IMG/VR virus record: IMGVR_UViG_3300044859_001027 | Location: 1-24,001 of that record | Source of the DNA: a virus | Strand: one strand, 5' to 3' | Length of the DNA stretch: 24,001 nucleotides | In this document: piece by piece, positions 10,200-24,001 of the stretch | Numbering within the stretch: position 1 is the stretch's first letter | Layout: each line of letters opens with the position of its first letter | Program-made: the position numbers and the translations under genes | The notes under the pieces: generated by a model | The model's input: the letters and a program-made list of their open reading frames with translations, nothing else | Database searches by the model: none | Told to the model about the DNA's origin: nothing

Positions 10200-10742
10200 T
10201 TAAGGTAATAATTTTAATAACAATGTTTGCCTACGGGTATCATCCCCTATATCTGCTAGGTCTTTTGATGGTAAGTTTTGATAAACGTCATGTGTATTTA
10301 CATCTTGTTTACCAACCTGATTATATCCTACAACACGATTTGGGAAATTCTTAATAAGTTGTTGCCAAATGCCTATTCTACTGTCATCAGTTTGTGTGCT
10401 GTCACTGTATAACGGTACTTTTAGATACTGTGACATTGCATTATAAATTTTCCACCCGTATCCTTGACCACGCCCCTCAGGAGAACTAGCTACTGCACCT
10501 GTTTTTAATCCATTATGAAATTTACTCATACCCGCATAGAAGATAGGATTTTTGTTTTTATCAAATACATATATCTGATACATATCCGGGCTACGAACAA
10601 TAATGTTTGGAGCTCCTATGTCTAAACCAACAAGTCTTGATGCCTGACCTGATTTAATATTAATTAACGCAGTTTTATACATAGCATTAATATTAATATT
10701 CTTTTTTACCGGTGGCATTTGAATTATTTCTGTCATTCTCAT
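10200..10742 (-). CDS. GNAT-like acetyltransferase-fold phage protein
   Basis: Residues 80-150 show the GNAT acetyl-CoA signature: a strand followed by V/A-SSPEGRGQGYGWKIYNAMSQ (the R/Q-x-x-G-x-G loop and helix), then PLYSDSTQTDDSRIGIWQQL and a strand (RVVGYN). The preceding strand YVFDKNKNPIFYAGMSKF fits the central sheet. The substrate is unknown; phage GNAT proteins may acetylate host proteins or be structural. The ATG overlaps the SOD gene's TGA, giving tight coupling. The acetyltransferase function is inferred from the motif alone. Confidence 0.6.
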   Translation of the reverse strand: MRMTEIIQMPPVKKNININAMYKTALINIKSGQASRLVGLDIGAPNIIVRSPDMYQIYVFDKNKNPIFYAGMSKFHNGLKTGAVASSPEGRGQGYGWKIYNAMSQYLKVPLYSDSTQTDDSRIGIWQQLIKNFPNRVVGYNQVGKQDVNTHDVYQNLPSKDLADIGDDTRRQTLLLKLLP

Positions 10743-11290
10743 AAATTCTTACCCCAACGTGTATTGATATGGCCCCAGTTCATTATCTTCCAGATGTTTT
10801 CTAGGTATTGTCTTTTGTCTGCTTGATAGTCTAATGCCCAGGCATGTTCCCACCAGTCAACTAGTATAAGAATATCATCACGGACTTCATGGTTTACAAT
10901 AGTTTTTATTTCTCCGTTGTATGTCATGTAAATCCAACCACTGCCCTGTATCTTCATGGCTTCTAGTTTAAATTGTTCTTTAAAATCTCTCCACCATCCG
11001 TATCTACGTTTAATTAAATTTAGTACAGGACCATTAGCAGTGTTATCATCTCTAGGCTCACGGAATTGACTGAAATAAATGTTGTGCAGAATTGCTCCTG
11101 CATAGTTAAAATCTGTATCACCTTCATCGTTGTTGTATCGTTTAGCATAGCCATGGGCTAAATCACTATAGTGATATTCCATAGTGGCTTTGCTTAAAAC
11201 TGGATTGAGGTCAGAAAGACTATAGGATAGTTTATCTATCTCTATTTTTCGTGTGTTTGCTTCGGCAATTCTCTCTACAATATCATACAT
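10739..11290 (-). CDS. Fe/Mn-type superoxide dismutase
   Basis: All four metal ligands of the Fe/Mn SOD family can be placed: His40 in MEYHYSDLAHGY (the 'M.YHY..H...Y' helix), His69 in AGAILHNIYFSQF, and Asp145 and His149 in LVDWWEHAWALDYQ. The trailing WKIMNWGHINTRW matches the family's 'fw..iNW' end. It dismutates superoxide to peroxide and oxygen. At 183 residues it is slightly shorter than the usual ~200. The N-terminal extension is unusual (MYDIVERIAEANTRK), and the ATG has no Shine-Dalgarno and lies 7 bases after a GATAAATA motif. The metal preference cannot be told. It leads the SOD, GNAT, Cys-rich, IscA operon. Confidence 0.88.
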   Translation of the reverse strand: MYDIVERIAEANTRKIEIDKLSYSLSDLNPVLSKATMEYHYSDLAHGYAKRYNNDEGDTDFNYAGAILHNIYFSQFREPRDDNTANGPVLNLIKRRYGWWRDFKEQFKLEAMKIQGSGWIYMTYNGEIKTIVNHEVRDDILILVDWWEHAWALDYQADKRQYLENIWKIMNWGHINTRWGKNL

Positions 11291-11315: not shown

Positions 11316-12311
11316 TTACTTATCTATAAGATTGTCGCGGAATATCTGCCAGGCATTTTCCCATGACCAACGATAACTACCCTTTATAACTGTGTGTCTA
11401 GGTAGAAACAAACAATCAGTAACAGCCTGTTTTAAATCAGAATTTAAACAACCAGTAATACCCTCGTCTATCACATCTTCTGGCCCTGGTACCGGATATG
11501 CGGCTACTGGAGTTCCGCATGCCATTGCTTCGACCATAACAAGTCCAAATGTTTCCCATTTACTAGGGAATACAAATACTTCCGCATTTGCATAATACTG
11601 TGCTAATTCTATTCCGGTTTTAAACCCAGTAAAGTGTACATCAGGATATTCTTTCTTATAAGTTTCTAGCATTGGCCCATCGCCAACCATAACCTTAAGA
11701 TATCCTGAATAATCCATGTCTAAAAATGCTTCTAAATTTTTTTCTTTACTAACACGGCTGACACATACTATATATTTTTCGGTCGTTGCTACTCTATGGC
11801 TTGGATTAAATATTGTGCGGTCAACACCCCTAGTCCATGGAATTATTTCACCGTCAAATCCGTGTGCTTGTAACTCCTTAACCATTGTGTCAGTAGTAGT
11901 TAACACTTTGCCACTATGCTTATGAAACCACCTAACTAGAGGCCAAGTAATGGCTTCAGGTATTCCAAATAAAGCACGGAGCCCTTCAGGGAACTTAGTA
12001 TGATAAGCAGTATTGTACCTAAAATTATGTTTTGAAAGATATTTTCTAGCAGACAAACCGAGAGGACCCTCTGTGGCGATGTGGATATAATCCGGACTGA
12101 ACGCCTCAATCTTCTTGCCCATCTGCCTTGGACGGGCAATCTTGACTTCGTTGTAGCCAGGACAATCAAAATAGCGGAAGTCCCCGGGAGTAATGTAAAC
12201 AACGTTATAACCATCCAGAAGCGCACACGCCTCAATATTTTTGTATGTTGTAACGACACCATTTATTTGATCCGGTAAATTATCTGTTATAATTAAAATT
12301 GTTTTTTGCAT
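11316..12311 (-). CDS. agt: GT4-family glycosyltransferase, Agt type (diacylglycerol glycosyltransferase)
   Basis: GT-B fold. The N-terminal domain has ILIITDNLPDQINGVVTTYK (NGVV acceptor loop), then DYIHIATEGPLGLSARKYL and TAYHTKFPE. The C-terminal domain has RGVD (161-164), VSRVSKEKN (Arg186, Lys191), GDGP (210-213) and the EX7E motif ETFGLVMVE (Glu253, Glu261). These segments agree closely with the alphaproteobacterial Agt-like enzymes that transfer a hexose or uronic acid from a nucleotide sugar to diacylglycerol under phosphate starvation. Length (331) is near normal, with an AGGAG Shine-Dalgarno. It lies 21 bases after plcP, the same pairing as in bacteria. An alternative is mannosylation of another surface lipid; the sugar specificity cannot be read. 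Confidence 0.85.
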   Translation of the reverse strand: MQKTILIITDNLPDQINGVVTTYKNIEACALLDGYNVVYITPGDFRYFDCPGYNEVKIARPRQMGKKIEAFSPDYIHIATEGPLGLSARKYLSKHNFRYNTAYHTKFPEGLRALFGIPEAITWPLVRWFHKHSGKVLTTTDTMVKELQAHGFDGEIIPWTRGVDRTIFNPSHRVATTEKYIVCVSRVSKEKNLEAFLDMDYSGYLKVMVGDGPMLETYKKEYPDVHFTGFKTGIELAQYYANAEVFVFPSKWETFGLVMVEAMACGTPVAAYPVPGPEDVIDEGITGCLNSDLKQAVTDCLFLPRHTVIKGSYRWSWENAWQIFRDNLIDK

Positions 12312-12332
12312 TCTCCTACCACCTTAAAACTT

Positions 12333-13238
12333 TTAAATTTTAAATTCCATTTGATCGTTTCTAGTGCGTGTTGACATGATTTCTGATCCTGAAAGTAAAT
12401 CTCTACTTTTCCCGGTTGATCGGTTGGATCGTTCACGTGAACTGCTATCAATATCAGTAACCACATCATCGTACTCCTTAGTCCATTTAATTATTTCCCA
12501 TGCGCCGTTGTAATGCTCTACCAATGCTGTACAACTTTCAACCCAGTCACCATCATTCATATAAGTGACACCATCTATTTCTTTTATTTCTGCATGGTGT
12601 ATATGGCCACATATAACACCGTCAAACCCTCGCTTCTTACAATATCCGGCAAGGTTACGTTCAAAATGAAAAATAAAATCTACTGCTTTTTTAACCTTGT
12701 GCTTAAGATACAAGCTAAGGCTCCAGTACCCAAAACCAAACCTATGGCGAATCCAATTAAATTTATTATTGAGAGCCAATATGAAATCATATGCTTTGTC
12801 TCCTAAAAAACTAAGCCAAGGTGCTAAACGTGTTATACCGTCAAATAAATCACCGTGCGTTACAAGATAGTGCTTACCATCTATACCGATATGTTCAGTT
12901 TGATTTACTATTTCTACGTTACCAAATCCTATGTCATATGGTATTAGTGGTCGTAAAAATTCATCATGATTCCCGGCAACAAATACAACTCTGGTTCCGC
13001 GTTTTGCATGACCCAATATCCTACGTACTACATTGGTATGACTTTGTTTCCAACGCCACTTGTTTTGTTGAATGCGCCACCCATCAATTATATCACCTAC
13101 AAGATATAGTGTTTCGCATGTATTATGTTTGAGGAAGTTATTTAAGGCTTCAGCCTTACAGTCTTTTGTGCCTAGGTGCACATCACTTATGAAAATAGAG
13201 CGATAGGTTTTTAAGGGCATACAATATTTATTGCCCAT
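12333..13238 (-). CDS. plcP: PlcP-type metallophosphoesterase (phospholipase C for lipid remodelling)
   Basis: The calcineurin-like core is complete: SDVHLG (Asp19, His21), VGDIIDGW (Asp49), AGNHDEFLR (Asn90, His91), THGD (His128) and CGHIHHA (211-216). The segments GDKAYDFILALNNKF, GYWSLSLYLKHKVKKAVDFI and NDGDWVESCTALVEH match the PlcP branch, often annotated as UDP-2,3-diacylglucosamine pyrophosphatase, rather than true LpxH. PlcP hydrolyses phosphatidyl-ethanolamine or -choline to diacylglycerol and phospho-alcohol. The tail after about residue 255 is Ser/Arg-rich and outside the fold. A start at 13220 (MPLKTYRS) is equally possible and fits the family better; neither has a Shine-Dalgarno. 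It pairs with agt downstream and follows IF-1. Confidence 0.85.
   Translation of the reverse strand: MGNKYCMPLKTYRSIFISDVHLGTKDCKAEALNNFLKHNTCETLYLVGDIIDGWRIQQNKWRWKQSHTNVVRRILGHAKRGTRVVFVAGNHDEFLRPLIPYDIGFGNVEIVNQTEHIGIDGKHYLVTHGDLFDGITRLAPWLSFLGDKAYDFILALNNKFNWIRHRFGFGYWSLSLYLKHKVKKAVDFIFHFERNLAGYCKKRGFDGVICGHIHHAEIKEIDGVTYMNDGDWVESCTALVEHYNGAWEIIKWTKEYDDVVTDIDSSSRERSNRSTGKSRDLLSGSEIMSTRTRNDQMEFKI
13225..13232 (-). promoter_or_regulatory. Late-like motif AATAAATA at the plcP start
   Basis: AATAAATA on the - strand between the two candidate plcP ATGs (13238 and 13220). It may be a secondary late promoter or simply Asn-Lys-Tyr codons in AT-rich DNA, so confidence is low. Confidence 0.25.
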
Positions 13239-13260
13239 TATGTGTCAAATATGTGACAAA

Positions 13261-13476
13261 TTATCGTCTACGGGTGATTCGACCTTTAGTTAAGTCGTAG
13301 GGGCTAAATTCTATTTCTACTGTATCGCCCAACAGTATTTTAATATCATGCTGACGCATACGGCCACTGATGTAACCTATTACAGTAGGCCCTGCACTCA
13401 TTACTACACGGAACATAGCATTGGGTAATACATCGATTACCTTGCCGTCCATTTTAATACCTTCTTCTTTAGCCAT
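13261..13476 (-). CDS. infA: Translation initiation factor IF-1
   Basis: 71 residues starting [20 protein letters not shown] with [26 protein letters not shown] and [15 protein letters not shown]. This is a full-length OB-fold IF-1 with the family's typical landmarks (MAKE, LPN.MFRV, I.GkmR...I.il.GD.V, PYDL.kGRI). IF-1 binds the ribosomal A site of the 30S subunit and helps start translation. The ATG at 13476 is chosen from the family start; an AAGGAG lies rather far upstream (about 16 bases). It overlaps no other domain and precedes plcP. A phage IF-1 could replace or compete with the host factor. Confidence 0.93.
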
Positions 13477-13498
13477 GTTTTTAGTTTTAAAACTCCTT

Positions 13499-13885
13499 TT
13501 AATTTCGGCGCATTGTTGAAATGTCTTTTGCTTCCTGATCACTAAAGATAGGAACAGCGTTAGACTTGTGCATGGTACCTATGCCGATAATCTTAGTACC
13601 AGTGTATTGAGGGATTTGCTTAGTATTGCCGATACCGTCACCTGTATTACGGCTAGGTATGTGATTGCTAGTAGAACGACCAGCAGGCGTAGATAATGAA
13701 TAGACCAGTGACTCACGTTTAGGCGTAGTCATTTTGGGTGACATAGTAGACCATTTAGCTTGATTACGTTCCCACTCTGCTTGTAACTCACGTGCCTTGC
13801 GAGCCTCAGTAGCATTGCGGAATTTCTGTTTACCCTTACGTTTACCGCCGGTTGATAGAGCGGGGTGTGCGAGGTGCATAGTCAT
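13499..13885 (-). CDS. Conserved phage protein of the MTMHL type, 128 aa
   Basis: The N-terminus MTMHL and the C-terminal [20 protein letters not shown] are landmarks I associate with a widespread but uncharacterised phage protein; both ends are preserved with a basic, disordered middle ([20 protein letters not shown]). No enzyme motif is visible; it could be an RNA- or DNA-binding adaptor. It is the first full gene behind the sigma70 promoter at 13918-13946 and precedes IF-1. It has no Shine-Dalgarno; a nine-codon reading frame just upstream ends in a TGA overlapping this ATG. Confidence 0.7.
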
Positions 13886-17503: not shown

Positions 17504-18955
17504 ATGATAATATCAGGTGGATTTAGTTTAACAGGCGGTGCCTCTTTTGCAATAGAAAGAGAACCTGACGCTCCTACAATTGGTGTTGCTACTGCAAATG
17601 GCAGTACTGCAGCCACAGTGACGTTCACTGCACCTACATTCAATGGTGGTAGAACAATAACAACCTACACAGCAACTAGTAGTCCCGGAAGTATTACGGG
17701 AACATTAAGTCAAGCTGGTAGTGGTACAATAGATGTTTCTGGATTAACAACCGGAGTATCATATACATTTACAGTAACTGCTACTAATGCATTAGGTACA
17801 AGTTCACCTAGCAGTGCAAGTAATAGTATTACACCTGCTCAATCTATTGTTAGTAATCAAATTGCAACTACTGATTTGAATACATATGTGATTAATACTA
17901 CCAATGGGGTAGCATATGGCTGGGGATTGAATAATCAAGGTGCAGGCGGTGAGATAGGCAGTGTAGGGGACGGCACGTCAATTACTAGATCAACACCTGC
18001 AATAATCGGTGGAAGTTTCTTGTCTATTATGGGAATATCAATGGGTGGGTTTGGCATAAAATCCGATGGTAGTTTATGGAGTTGGGGAGCAGATGGCGGC
18101 ACTGGCAAACTGGGACTTGGAGGTACTTCTTCCAGATCAAGTCCAACTCAAATAGGGTCAAGTACCAATTGGATACGATTGGCATTAAGTCCTGGTGACA
18201 ACGGGACGATGGCTGCAGCTATCAATAGTTTAGGTCAATTATATGCATGGGGATATGATGATTACGGAACTTTTGGTAATGGTGTTGCAGGATACCGTAG
18301 AAGTAGTCCGGTACAAATAGCAGGATCTTGGACAATGGCCTCAATTGGTTATAATAATGCAATCGGTATTAAAAGTGACGGAACTGTATGGTCTTGGGGA
18401 AATAATCAATGGGGATTTATCGGCGATGGTACTACAATTAGCAGATCAAGCCCGGTTCAAATTTTATCCGGCAAAACTATTACTTATGTAGGTTTAAAAG
18501 GTAACGCCGGCGGCCTTGCACTTGAATCTGACGGAAAATTATGGTCATGGGGAATTAACTCCCCTTATGGAAGTGTCGGTGATAATACTAATATTAGCAG
18601 GAGTAGTCCGGTACAGGTAGCTGGATCTTGGACATCTGTTTCAGGTGGCAATTATTTTGTATTGGCAATCAGGTCCGATAACACCTTATGGTCTTGGGGA
18701 TATAATGGTTATGGTGAATTGGGATTACCTATACCAGGTGGTAATGTATTCCGTAGTAGCCCAGTACAAATTGGTTCTAATTCTAATTGGACAAAAGTTG
18801 CCGCAGGCAATGGCGGCGCTATGGCATATAATTCAAGTAATCAATTATTTGTTTGGGGAAGAAACGCCGGCGGCTCATATAACTTCTTTAGGGTAGGCGA
18901 TGGAACAAGTATTAACAGGAGTAGCCCAGTGCAAATTGGTACTACATGGGGATGA
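17504..18955 (+). CDS. FN3 domain plus RCC1-repeat beta-propeller protein, likely virion adhesin
   Basis: 483 residues. After a short Gly-rich N-terminus, residues about 20-112 form a fibronectin type III domain (PDAPTIGVATANGSTAATVT through SGLTTGVSYTFTVTATNALG). Residues 118-483 contain seven RCC1-type repeats, each with a 'LWSWGxNxxGxxGdGT' strand pair and an 'RSSPVQI' turn, at spacings near 50 residues. This is the number needed for a closed seven-bladed propeller. RCC1-like propellers with Ig/FN3 domains appear on phage surfaces as fibre tips or capsid decorations that bind host glycans or proteins. A virion role is inferred. No export signal is present. A late-type motif precedes it. 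Confidence 0.82.
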   Translation: MIISGGFSLTGGASFAIEREPDAPTIGVATANGSTAATVTFTAPTFNGGRTITTYTATSSPGSITGTLSQAGSGTIDVSGLTTGVSYTFTVTATNALGTSSPSSASNSITPAQSIVSNQIATTDLNTYVINTTNGVAYGWGLNNQGAGGEIGSVGDGTSITRSTPAIIGGSFLSIMGISMGGFGIKSDGSLWSWGADGGTGKLGLGGTSSRSSPTQIGSSTNWIRLALSPGDNGTMAAAINSLGQLYAWGYDDYGTFGNGVAGYRRSSPVQIAGSWTMASIGYNNAIGIKSDGTVWSWGNNQWGFIGDGTTISRSSPVQILSGKTITYVGLKGNAGGLALESDGKLWSWGINSPYGSVGDNTNISRSSPVQVAGSWTSVSGGNYFVLAIRSDNTLWSWGYNGYGELGLPIPGGNVFRSSPVQIGSNSNWTKVAAGNGGAMAYNSSNQLFVWGRNAGGSYNFFRVGDGTSINRSSPVQIGTTWG

Positions 18956-22633: not shown

Positions 22634-23341
22634 CTAATTCTGAACAAAACGGTTATTCTGTCCTAAATTGCCTTCTACACCTATAAATTCAGCTTCATAT
22701 ACTAACTTAGGTGGCAGATTTTTATAAAGCAAGTGTTCTATATCGGCATATCGTCCAGCACGTAATCGCATATCCATTTCAGTAAAGGCATCACTATAAA
22801 ACTTTTTAACTTTGGTGTGATGTTTAATAGGCCAGGACCAAAGCCTAGATACATATTGATAAGGAATATCAACTACCTTGTTGAAAGGAGTGGGTAATTT
22901 TGTGCCCACTATAATTTTATTTTTTTGTTTCTCATATAGGTTAAGGTCAAACTTATCATTCAACCTATACCTACCTGATAGTTTATGCACACGGTCAATG
23001 CCAGTTAACATATCAGAATTATCTAACATCTTTAATGCGCTATGAAAGCAGATAATTTCACTCACATTTTTAACAATATCCCAATTCTCATTTTTTTCGT
23101 GAATGTCAGCTAACATCTCATTACCAGACATATTAATAAAACAATGCGTGGAGTCTTGAAATTTATCAACTATATCTTGTTCCAAAGGAATAGCTGAGGA
23201 TTCTACTACAACAATTTTTGCACCCGGTGCTTTTTCATACACACTTTTTAAGGTGTGTAATGTTTGAAGTACTCTATCCTCTCTAGTGTGATGACCAAAT
23301 CGTGTATTAATGGCACTGGTTATTATAAACAAATGATTCAT
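22634..23341 (-). CDS. Hypothetical protein, possibly glycosyltransferase-like, 235 aa
   Basis: The N-terminal HLFIITSAINTRFGHHTRED and AKIVVVESSAIP look like the beta-alpha-beta start of a nucleotide-sugar-dependent (GT-A) fold. A central IDRVHKLSGRYRLNDKFDLN recalls the 'k.sGRY.l' segment of some surface-sugar transferases. No clear DxD catalytic motif was located with confidence, so the assignment is tentative. Its start overlaps the stop of the metallophosphoesterase by 4 bases, forming one unit. Confidence 0.5.
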   Translation of the reverse strand: MNHLFIITSAINTRFGHHTREDRVLQTLHTLKSVYEKAPGAKIVVVESSAIPLEQDIVDKFQDSTHCFINMSGNEMLADIHEKNENWDIVKNVSEIICFHSALKMLDNSDMLTGIDRVHKLSGRYRLNDKFDLNLYEKQKNKIIVGTKLPTPFNKVVDIPYQYVSRLWSWPIKHHTKVKKFYSDAFTEMDMRLRAGRYADIEHLLYKNLPPKLVYEAEFIGVEGNLGQNNRFVQN

Positions 23342-24001
23342 GCATTTATATATGCCAACTGAAACACATCTGCATTTTTATCATGGCCTGCATATCCGCG
23401 AGGATTACACACCACCCTTGTTGTTCCAATCATATAGTCCATTGGTTCGTGTGTGTGACCATGAGTCCACAACACGATTTGTGGGTGATCCAAAATGAAT
23501 TCACTCAAATCACTATGATAACCGCCGTTCATCAAATAGTCACCCCTGTACATTTCATGGATACTTTGGTGACTTGGCGTATGATGACCAACGAATACAA
23601 CCTTCTTGTCTTTCAAGTCAGGCAACACAGCCTTCAAGTATGACATAGTTTGGTGATGACGATGCATAGTATGTGCTGGCCGCAACTTAGTGAAGCCAAG
23701 TTCATCATTACGAATGACACGATAGTCATTCATCATATCGGTTAGTGCATGTAAAGTCAATGGATCAGCCTTGTTACAATCAGTCCACAATGTAGCACCG
23801 ATAAAGGACACTTCACCTATCACCTTGATATCGTTTTCGAGGAAGTAAACATTAGGATATCTTGCACACTCGTCACGCAAATGTTGTAGGCTAGCCTTCC
23901 AACGCCCGTGATAGAATTCGTGGTTGCCTGCAATGTAAATTACATGCGGGAATTGAAAGCTACAACGGCTAAGAAAGTCACGGAATCGTAGTGCAGTCTC
24001 T
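23338..24001 (-). CDS. Metallophosphoesterase, 5'-truncated by the window end
   Basis: The frame is open to the right end of the window. Visible calcineurin-like motifs in order are YIAGNHEFYHG (GNHE), VVFVGHHTPS (GHH) and LWTHGHTHEPMDY (GHTH). The N-terminal DxH and GD motifs would lie outside. The type is a soluble phage phosphoesterase distinct from the PlcP gene at 12.3 kb (different spacing, no PlcP insert). The substrate is unknown. The C-terminal NPRGYAGHDKNADVFQLAYI is common to phage and bacterial homologues with unknown role. An internal TTG at 23880 is not the start. Confidence 0.85.
   Translation of the reverse strand, partial: ETALRFRDFLSRCSFQFPHVIYIAGNHEFYHGRWKASLQHLRDECARYPNVYFLENDIKVIGEVSFIGATLWTDCNKADPLTLHALTDMMNDYRVIRNDELGFTKLRPAHTMHRHHQTMSYLKAVLPDLKDKKVVFVGHHTPSHQSIHEMYRGDYLMNGGYHSDLSEFILDHPQIVLWTHGHTHEPMDYMIGTTRVVCNPRGYAGHDKNADVFQLAYINA

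Follow-up and report, generated by a model that had tools for sequence, protein, structure and literature searches.

Can a phage draw on the membrane of its host as a source of phosphorus? Phage DNA is rich in phosphorus, aquatic hosts are often short of it, and phages are known to carry pstS to keep phosphate uptake going. The question is raised by two adjacent genes in a 24,001-base IMG/VR virus record (IMGVR_UViG_3300044859_001027), the whole of which, positions 1 to 24,001, is referred to here as the window. The initial annotation recognized in them a PlcP-type metallophosphoesterase followed by an Agt-type GT4 glycosyltransferase, the two enzymes with which bacteria replace phospholipids by sugar lipids under phosphate starvation. 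It proposed that the phage uses them to release phosphorus for its DNA while keeping the membrane stable and that the altered surface could also block other phages. Our analysis confirms the gene pair and supports the proposed pathway, although the action of the enzymes on phospholipid and diacylglycerol during infection, and any effect on superinfection, remain inferences. It further uncovered three features that the initial annotation did not see, namely, a probable phosphate-responsive promoter, the replacement of the GT4 by an unrelated GT2 in many relatives, and an Asp-to-Glu change in the Agt active site.

A plcP-agt gene pair in viral genomes

Both ORFs are intact and lie on the minus strand, with plcP at 12333 to 13238 (301 aa) and, 21 bases downstream, the GT4 gene at 11316 to 12311 (331 aa). 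Pfam profile searches recovered Metallophos in the first (44.5 bits) and Glycos_transf_1 plus Glyco_transf_4 in the second (86 and 48 bits), and the latter shows the INGVV, VGDGP, and E253-x7-E261 motifs. The gene order matches that of bacterial plcP-agt operons. The pair is flanked upstream by a phage-encoded IF-1-like gene (13261 to 13542) and downstream by an iron/manganese superoxide dismutase gene (10739 to 11290), followed further on by an IscA/HesB-type gene. The window has no tRNA genes; it also codes for an RCC1-like repeat protein of 483 aa (17504 to 18955) and contains a second phosphoesterase reading frame (23338 to 23880; phrog_1649 metallo-phosphoesterase).

Although no capsid or terminase gene was recognized in the window itself, its genes are syntenic with a region (locus L155) of a 524-kb phage contig, G022, and match other plcP contigs (L057 and L083). 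G022 carries a T4-type gp23 capsid gene whose product is 71% identical to the major capsid protein of Sinorhizobium phage Phosso and 66% identical to that of the PA5oct-like Pseudomonas jumbo phages. Nine of the 49 long plcP contigs carry gp23, and the virus clades in the trees described below hold at most one bacterial sequence. On the basis of these observations, we reject bacterial contamination or a prophage remnant as a source of the pair. The porin_4 and PstS types encountered hint only at a Gram-negative Pseudomonadota host.

The pair is widespread, with at least 600 PlcP and 335 GT4 relatives in viral contigs. In the loci we retrieved, the two genes, when both are present, are on one strand with plcP first, often 21 bases apart. 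In 106 loci made nonredundant at 96% PlcP identity, plcP is followed by a GT4 gene in 75 and by a GT2 gene in 26, such that 101 of 106 have a glycosyltransferase of one of two families downstream on the same strand, nearly always as the very next gene, which excludes a chance association. The GT2 enzyme, seen at L061:6916-7632, L032:6916-7632, and 24 more nonredundant loci, belongs to Pfam Glycos_transf_2, reaches no curated NCBIfam cutoff, and occupies exactly the same place behind plcP as the GT4; no match to it lies near the bacterial plcP genes examined. The jumbo phage contig G022 has two modules, at 82 kb and 184 kb, one with GT4 and one with GT2. Median dN/dS is 0.10 for plcP and 0.16 for GT4, indicating that both genes are under purifying selection.

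Affinities of the phosphoesterase and the glycosyltransferase

The window phosphoesterase scores 47 bits against the LpxH model (cutoff, 134 bits), comparable to bacterial PlcPs, which score 27 to 52 bits, whereas the true LpxH proteins of the same bacteria score 230 to 315 bits. In a 73-sequence maximum-likelihood tree, PlcP is split from 10 LpxH sequences with full support (100/100), and the window protein lies inside bacterial PlcP from plcP-agt operons, in a clade of 27 viral sequences plus one long-branched Methylotenera contig (99/100), next to Hyphomonadaceae-type PlcP with weak support (84/59). The placement rests on these operon-linked bacterial relatives rather than on the characterized PlcP sequences themselves. 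The proteins of phages Mosig and S-SRM01 and of a gut phage fall elsewhere, so phages gained plcP more than once. The metal ligands D18, H20, D48, N89, H127, H211, and H213 (numbered without the first Met) are invariant in 22 sequences, and the AF2 model (pLDDT, 80) has LpxH enzymes as its best PDB matches. Many viral PlcPs, including that of the window (residues 255 to 301), have a Ser- and charge-rich, predicted disordered C-terminal tail that is absent from other viral copies. A 670-kb contig filed under a Methylotenera MAG (L206) has a divergent plcP in phage-like surroundings and may be a phage or prophage, and in a single-cell betaproteobacterium (L211:4923-8842) plcP is followed by a DUF3419 (BtaA-like) gene, a methyltransferase gene, and a GT4 gene, a possible combined betaine-lipid and glycolipid cluster.

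In a second 73-sequence tree, of GT4 proteins, all viral copies form one clade (100/100) inside the bacterial Agt group (100/100), apart from other GT4s of the same bacteria and from E. coli WaaG and WaaB. Hyphomonas and Hellea, whose plcP is not next to agt, still have an Agt elsewhere. The AF2 model of the window protein (pLDDT, 87.5) matches GT-B fold structures. Of the 14 residues that mutagenesis showed to be essential in GTcp of Pelagibacter HTCC7211 (PMC8231724), 13 are identical in the window protein, including the diacylglycerol-contact residues H104, T160, R161, and W317 (window numbering), with the correspondence inferred from motif spacing and the alignment. The exception is the catalytic Asp256, which is Glu253 here and is preceded by Trp instead of Thr, such that His104 of the catalytic dyad is kept but the FPSxTDTFG motif reads FPSKWETFG. 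All 42 bacterial plcP-adjacent Agts have Asp, while 86 of 91 viral copies have Glu; the five viral copies with Asp belong to the subclade that branches first within the viral clade. Therefore, the change most likely happened inside the viral lineage, providing a clean comparative case of an enzyme whose catalytic acid changed after entering viruses. As the D256E mutant of GTcp lost more than 90% of its activity (PMC8231724), the donor, acceptor, or rate of the viral enzyme may differ, although Glu is the usual residue at this position in other GT4 enzymes, such as MshA (E316) (PMC8231724). Accordingly, we regard the window protein as an Agt-clade variant rather than a proven Agt.

Pho-box-like promoters and linkage to pstS

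Scanning of upstream regions for a Pho box gave a clear excess over shuffled sequences. A refined pattern, TGTMAY-N5-TGTMAY, matches at 11 or 12 of 12 positions upstream of 84 of 101 plcP genes, against 0.7 expected from shuffles and 1.8% of other segments of the same loci. As the pattern was refined on these same sequences, the contrast between gene classes is the better test: it precedes 87 of 106 plcP, 12 of 12 pstS, and 10 of 11 genes of an uncharacterized MRLEDLA family but only 19 of 1,217 other ORFs, 0 of 77 GT4, and 0 of 26 GT2 genes. Hence, plcP and its transferase appear to share one promoter. The box is followed by TAAATA, a promoter -10 or T4-late-like element, at 11 nt or 21 to 22 nt, spacings that are one helical turn apart and that account for 83 of 87 viral plcP promoters. 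In the window, the direct repeat TTGTCACATATTTGACAC (11 of 12 positions) lies on the minus strand at 13242 to 13259, with TAAATA at 13225 to 13230, 11 nt after it. These elements lie so close to the annotated start that the second in-frame ATG (13218 to 13220) is the likelier plcP start, which would make PlcP 295 rather than 301 aa. In 80 of 82 loci, the next in-frame ATG lies within 8 nt of TAAATA, most often 4 to 8 nt after it, suggesting a leaderless or nearly leaderless plcP message; in contrast, pstS has a longer leader with an AGGAG.

Across the 49 long records (6.46 Mb), the combination of box and TAAATA occurs 43 times, with zero hits for the reversed pattern. By our assignment from coordinates and downstream reading frames, 27 sites are upstream of plcP and 6 are upstream of all six pstS genes; the rest precede MRLEDLA genes, a second uncharacterized family, and one secreted-protein gene, with one site lacking a clear gene. 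The MRLEDLA family (215 aa; e.g., L068:7721-8368, L142:7064-7711, and L155) occurs behind the pair, whereas the second family (DPVRP...IP) is seen at L312 and L322. Phage-encoded porins or outer-membrane barrels also lie near plcP (L070:4851-5759 and L119:1157-1711), and the L119 secreted-protein gene has a Pho-type box. Bacterial plcP genes carry the same 11-bp-period repeat more often than control segments (10 of 67 at 11/12 or better against 0), in line with the Pho boxes reported for plcP operons (PMC4796936, PMC8528852).

All six pstS genes in the 49 long records lie within about 5 kb of plcP (0.16 to 4.2 kb), in records of 65 to 320 kb, with a nominal probability of about 5e-7 that assumes independence, although related contigs are not independent. 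The viral PstS passes two curated PstS cutoffs. In the cultured pelagiphage Mosig, an independently acquired plcP is divergent from a pstS-like gene; no Pho box of the same type was found between them (best, 9/12), though CTTAAC-like repeats are visible there. Taken together, these observations point to a phage Pho regulon combining phosphate uptake with lipid renovation. This inference is from sequence only, and a study of cyanophages warns that Pho boxes predicted in phage genomes are not reliable without binding assays (PMC10976474).

Functional interpretation and comparison with known systems

The explanation we consider probable is that the two genes are a phage-borne copy of the bacterial phosphate-starvation lipid-renovation operon. 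Under this proposal, host phosphate starvation activates PhoB, which turns on the phage operon from a hybrid promoter upstream of plcP; PlcP removes the phosphorylated head group of host phospholipids to leave diacylglycerol, and the viral Agt caps it with a sugar, such that the membrane keeps its lipid while phosphorus is released for phage nucleic acid. In related phages, the same promoter type precedes pstS, whose product would keep phosphate uptake going. If a cell has on the order of 10^7 phospholipids, it would hold phosphorus for about ten genomes of 500 kb, suggesting a gain that is worthwhile but limited. A bolder reading, which we consider about as likely as not, is that a large group of freshwater-type phages, including jumbo phages, carries a Pho regulon of its own with hybrid PhoB-box/late-type promoters. 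This would couple pstS to plcP with exchangeable GT4 or GT2 through virus-evolved transferases with an altered catalytic acid, making the host membrane a phosphorus store for viral DNA and possibly giving it a virus-specific glycolipid.

Other interpretations appear less likely. The pair might make glycolipids chiefly to change the envelope, for superinfection exclusion, membrane stability, or lysis timing. The exchange of GT2 and GT4 behind the same plcP suggests that a sugar-lipid product may matter in itself, fatty acid desaturase genes occur near plcP in 28 of 106 loci, and lipid changes alter phage attachment in roseobacters (PMC9938194). However, the link with pstS and the shared Pho-type promoter point to phosphorus, PlcP is the conserved member and the transferase the exchangeable one, and the desaturases, present in 26 of 49 long records with up to four per record and often far from plcP, are only partly linked to the module. 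It is also conceivable, but unlikely, that the viral GT4 has moved to another acceptor or sugar donor, for example, a polyprenyl or LPS intermediate, as the Asp-to-Glu and Thr-to-Trp changes at the donor site in the main viral clade and the near-inactivity of GTcp D256E might suggest. Against this, the residues shown to contact diacylglycerol are all kept, the clade lies inside Agt, strict adjacency with plcP is maintained, and Glu is usual in other GT4 enzymes. With respect to the regulation alone, and compatibly with the lipid pathway, the repeat plus TAAATA could be a phage-specific promoter activated by a phage factor unrelated to host PhoB: the viral consensus prefers TGTAAY over the E. 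coli TGTCAT, TAAATA resembles the T4 late promoter, and two uncharacterized gene families also carry it. We consider this doubtful because the element marks all pstS genes, bacterial plcP genes have the same repeat, and the 11-nt period with an A-rich spacer is that of the Pho box.

The enzymes and the bacterial operon are known (PMC4796936, PMC9239053, PMC8528852), as are phage genes under host Pho control in cyanophages (PMC10976474), but we found no published phage plcP-agt system in the papers searched, which did not cover preprints and most subscription journals, so that priority cannot be claimed. Compared with the bacterial plcP-agt operons of Phaeobacter MED193, P. aeruginosa (PA3219-PA3218), and Methylosinus OB3b, the phage locus has the same two families in the same order on the same strand with a Pho-type box upstream but differs in its phage genome, its own virus clade, Glu for Asp in the Agt active site, and the TAAATA promoter with the start codon 4 to 8 nt after it. 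Relative to GTcp, the transferase retains all tested essential residues but one, with T255 and D256 replaced by Trp252 and Glu253 and GRVA by SRVS. LpxH shares the fold and metal center of the phosphoesterase but is separated from it by a fully supported branch. Pelagibacter phage Mosig EXVC030M and Synechococcus phage S-SRM01 have PlcP family genes annotated as UDP-2,3-diacylglucosamine hydrolase, that of Mosig going unmentioned in its genome announcement; these T4-like phages represent separate acquisitions, with no glycosyltransferase directly downstream in the annotated records. Finally, like the cyanophage pstS and phoA genes under host PhoBR control, the present system appears to tie a phage metabolic gene to host phosphate starvation, with pstS present in relatives, but it occurs in a different host group with a different box type and would add membrane lipids as the phosphorus source.
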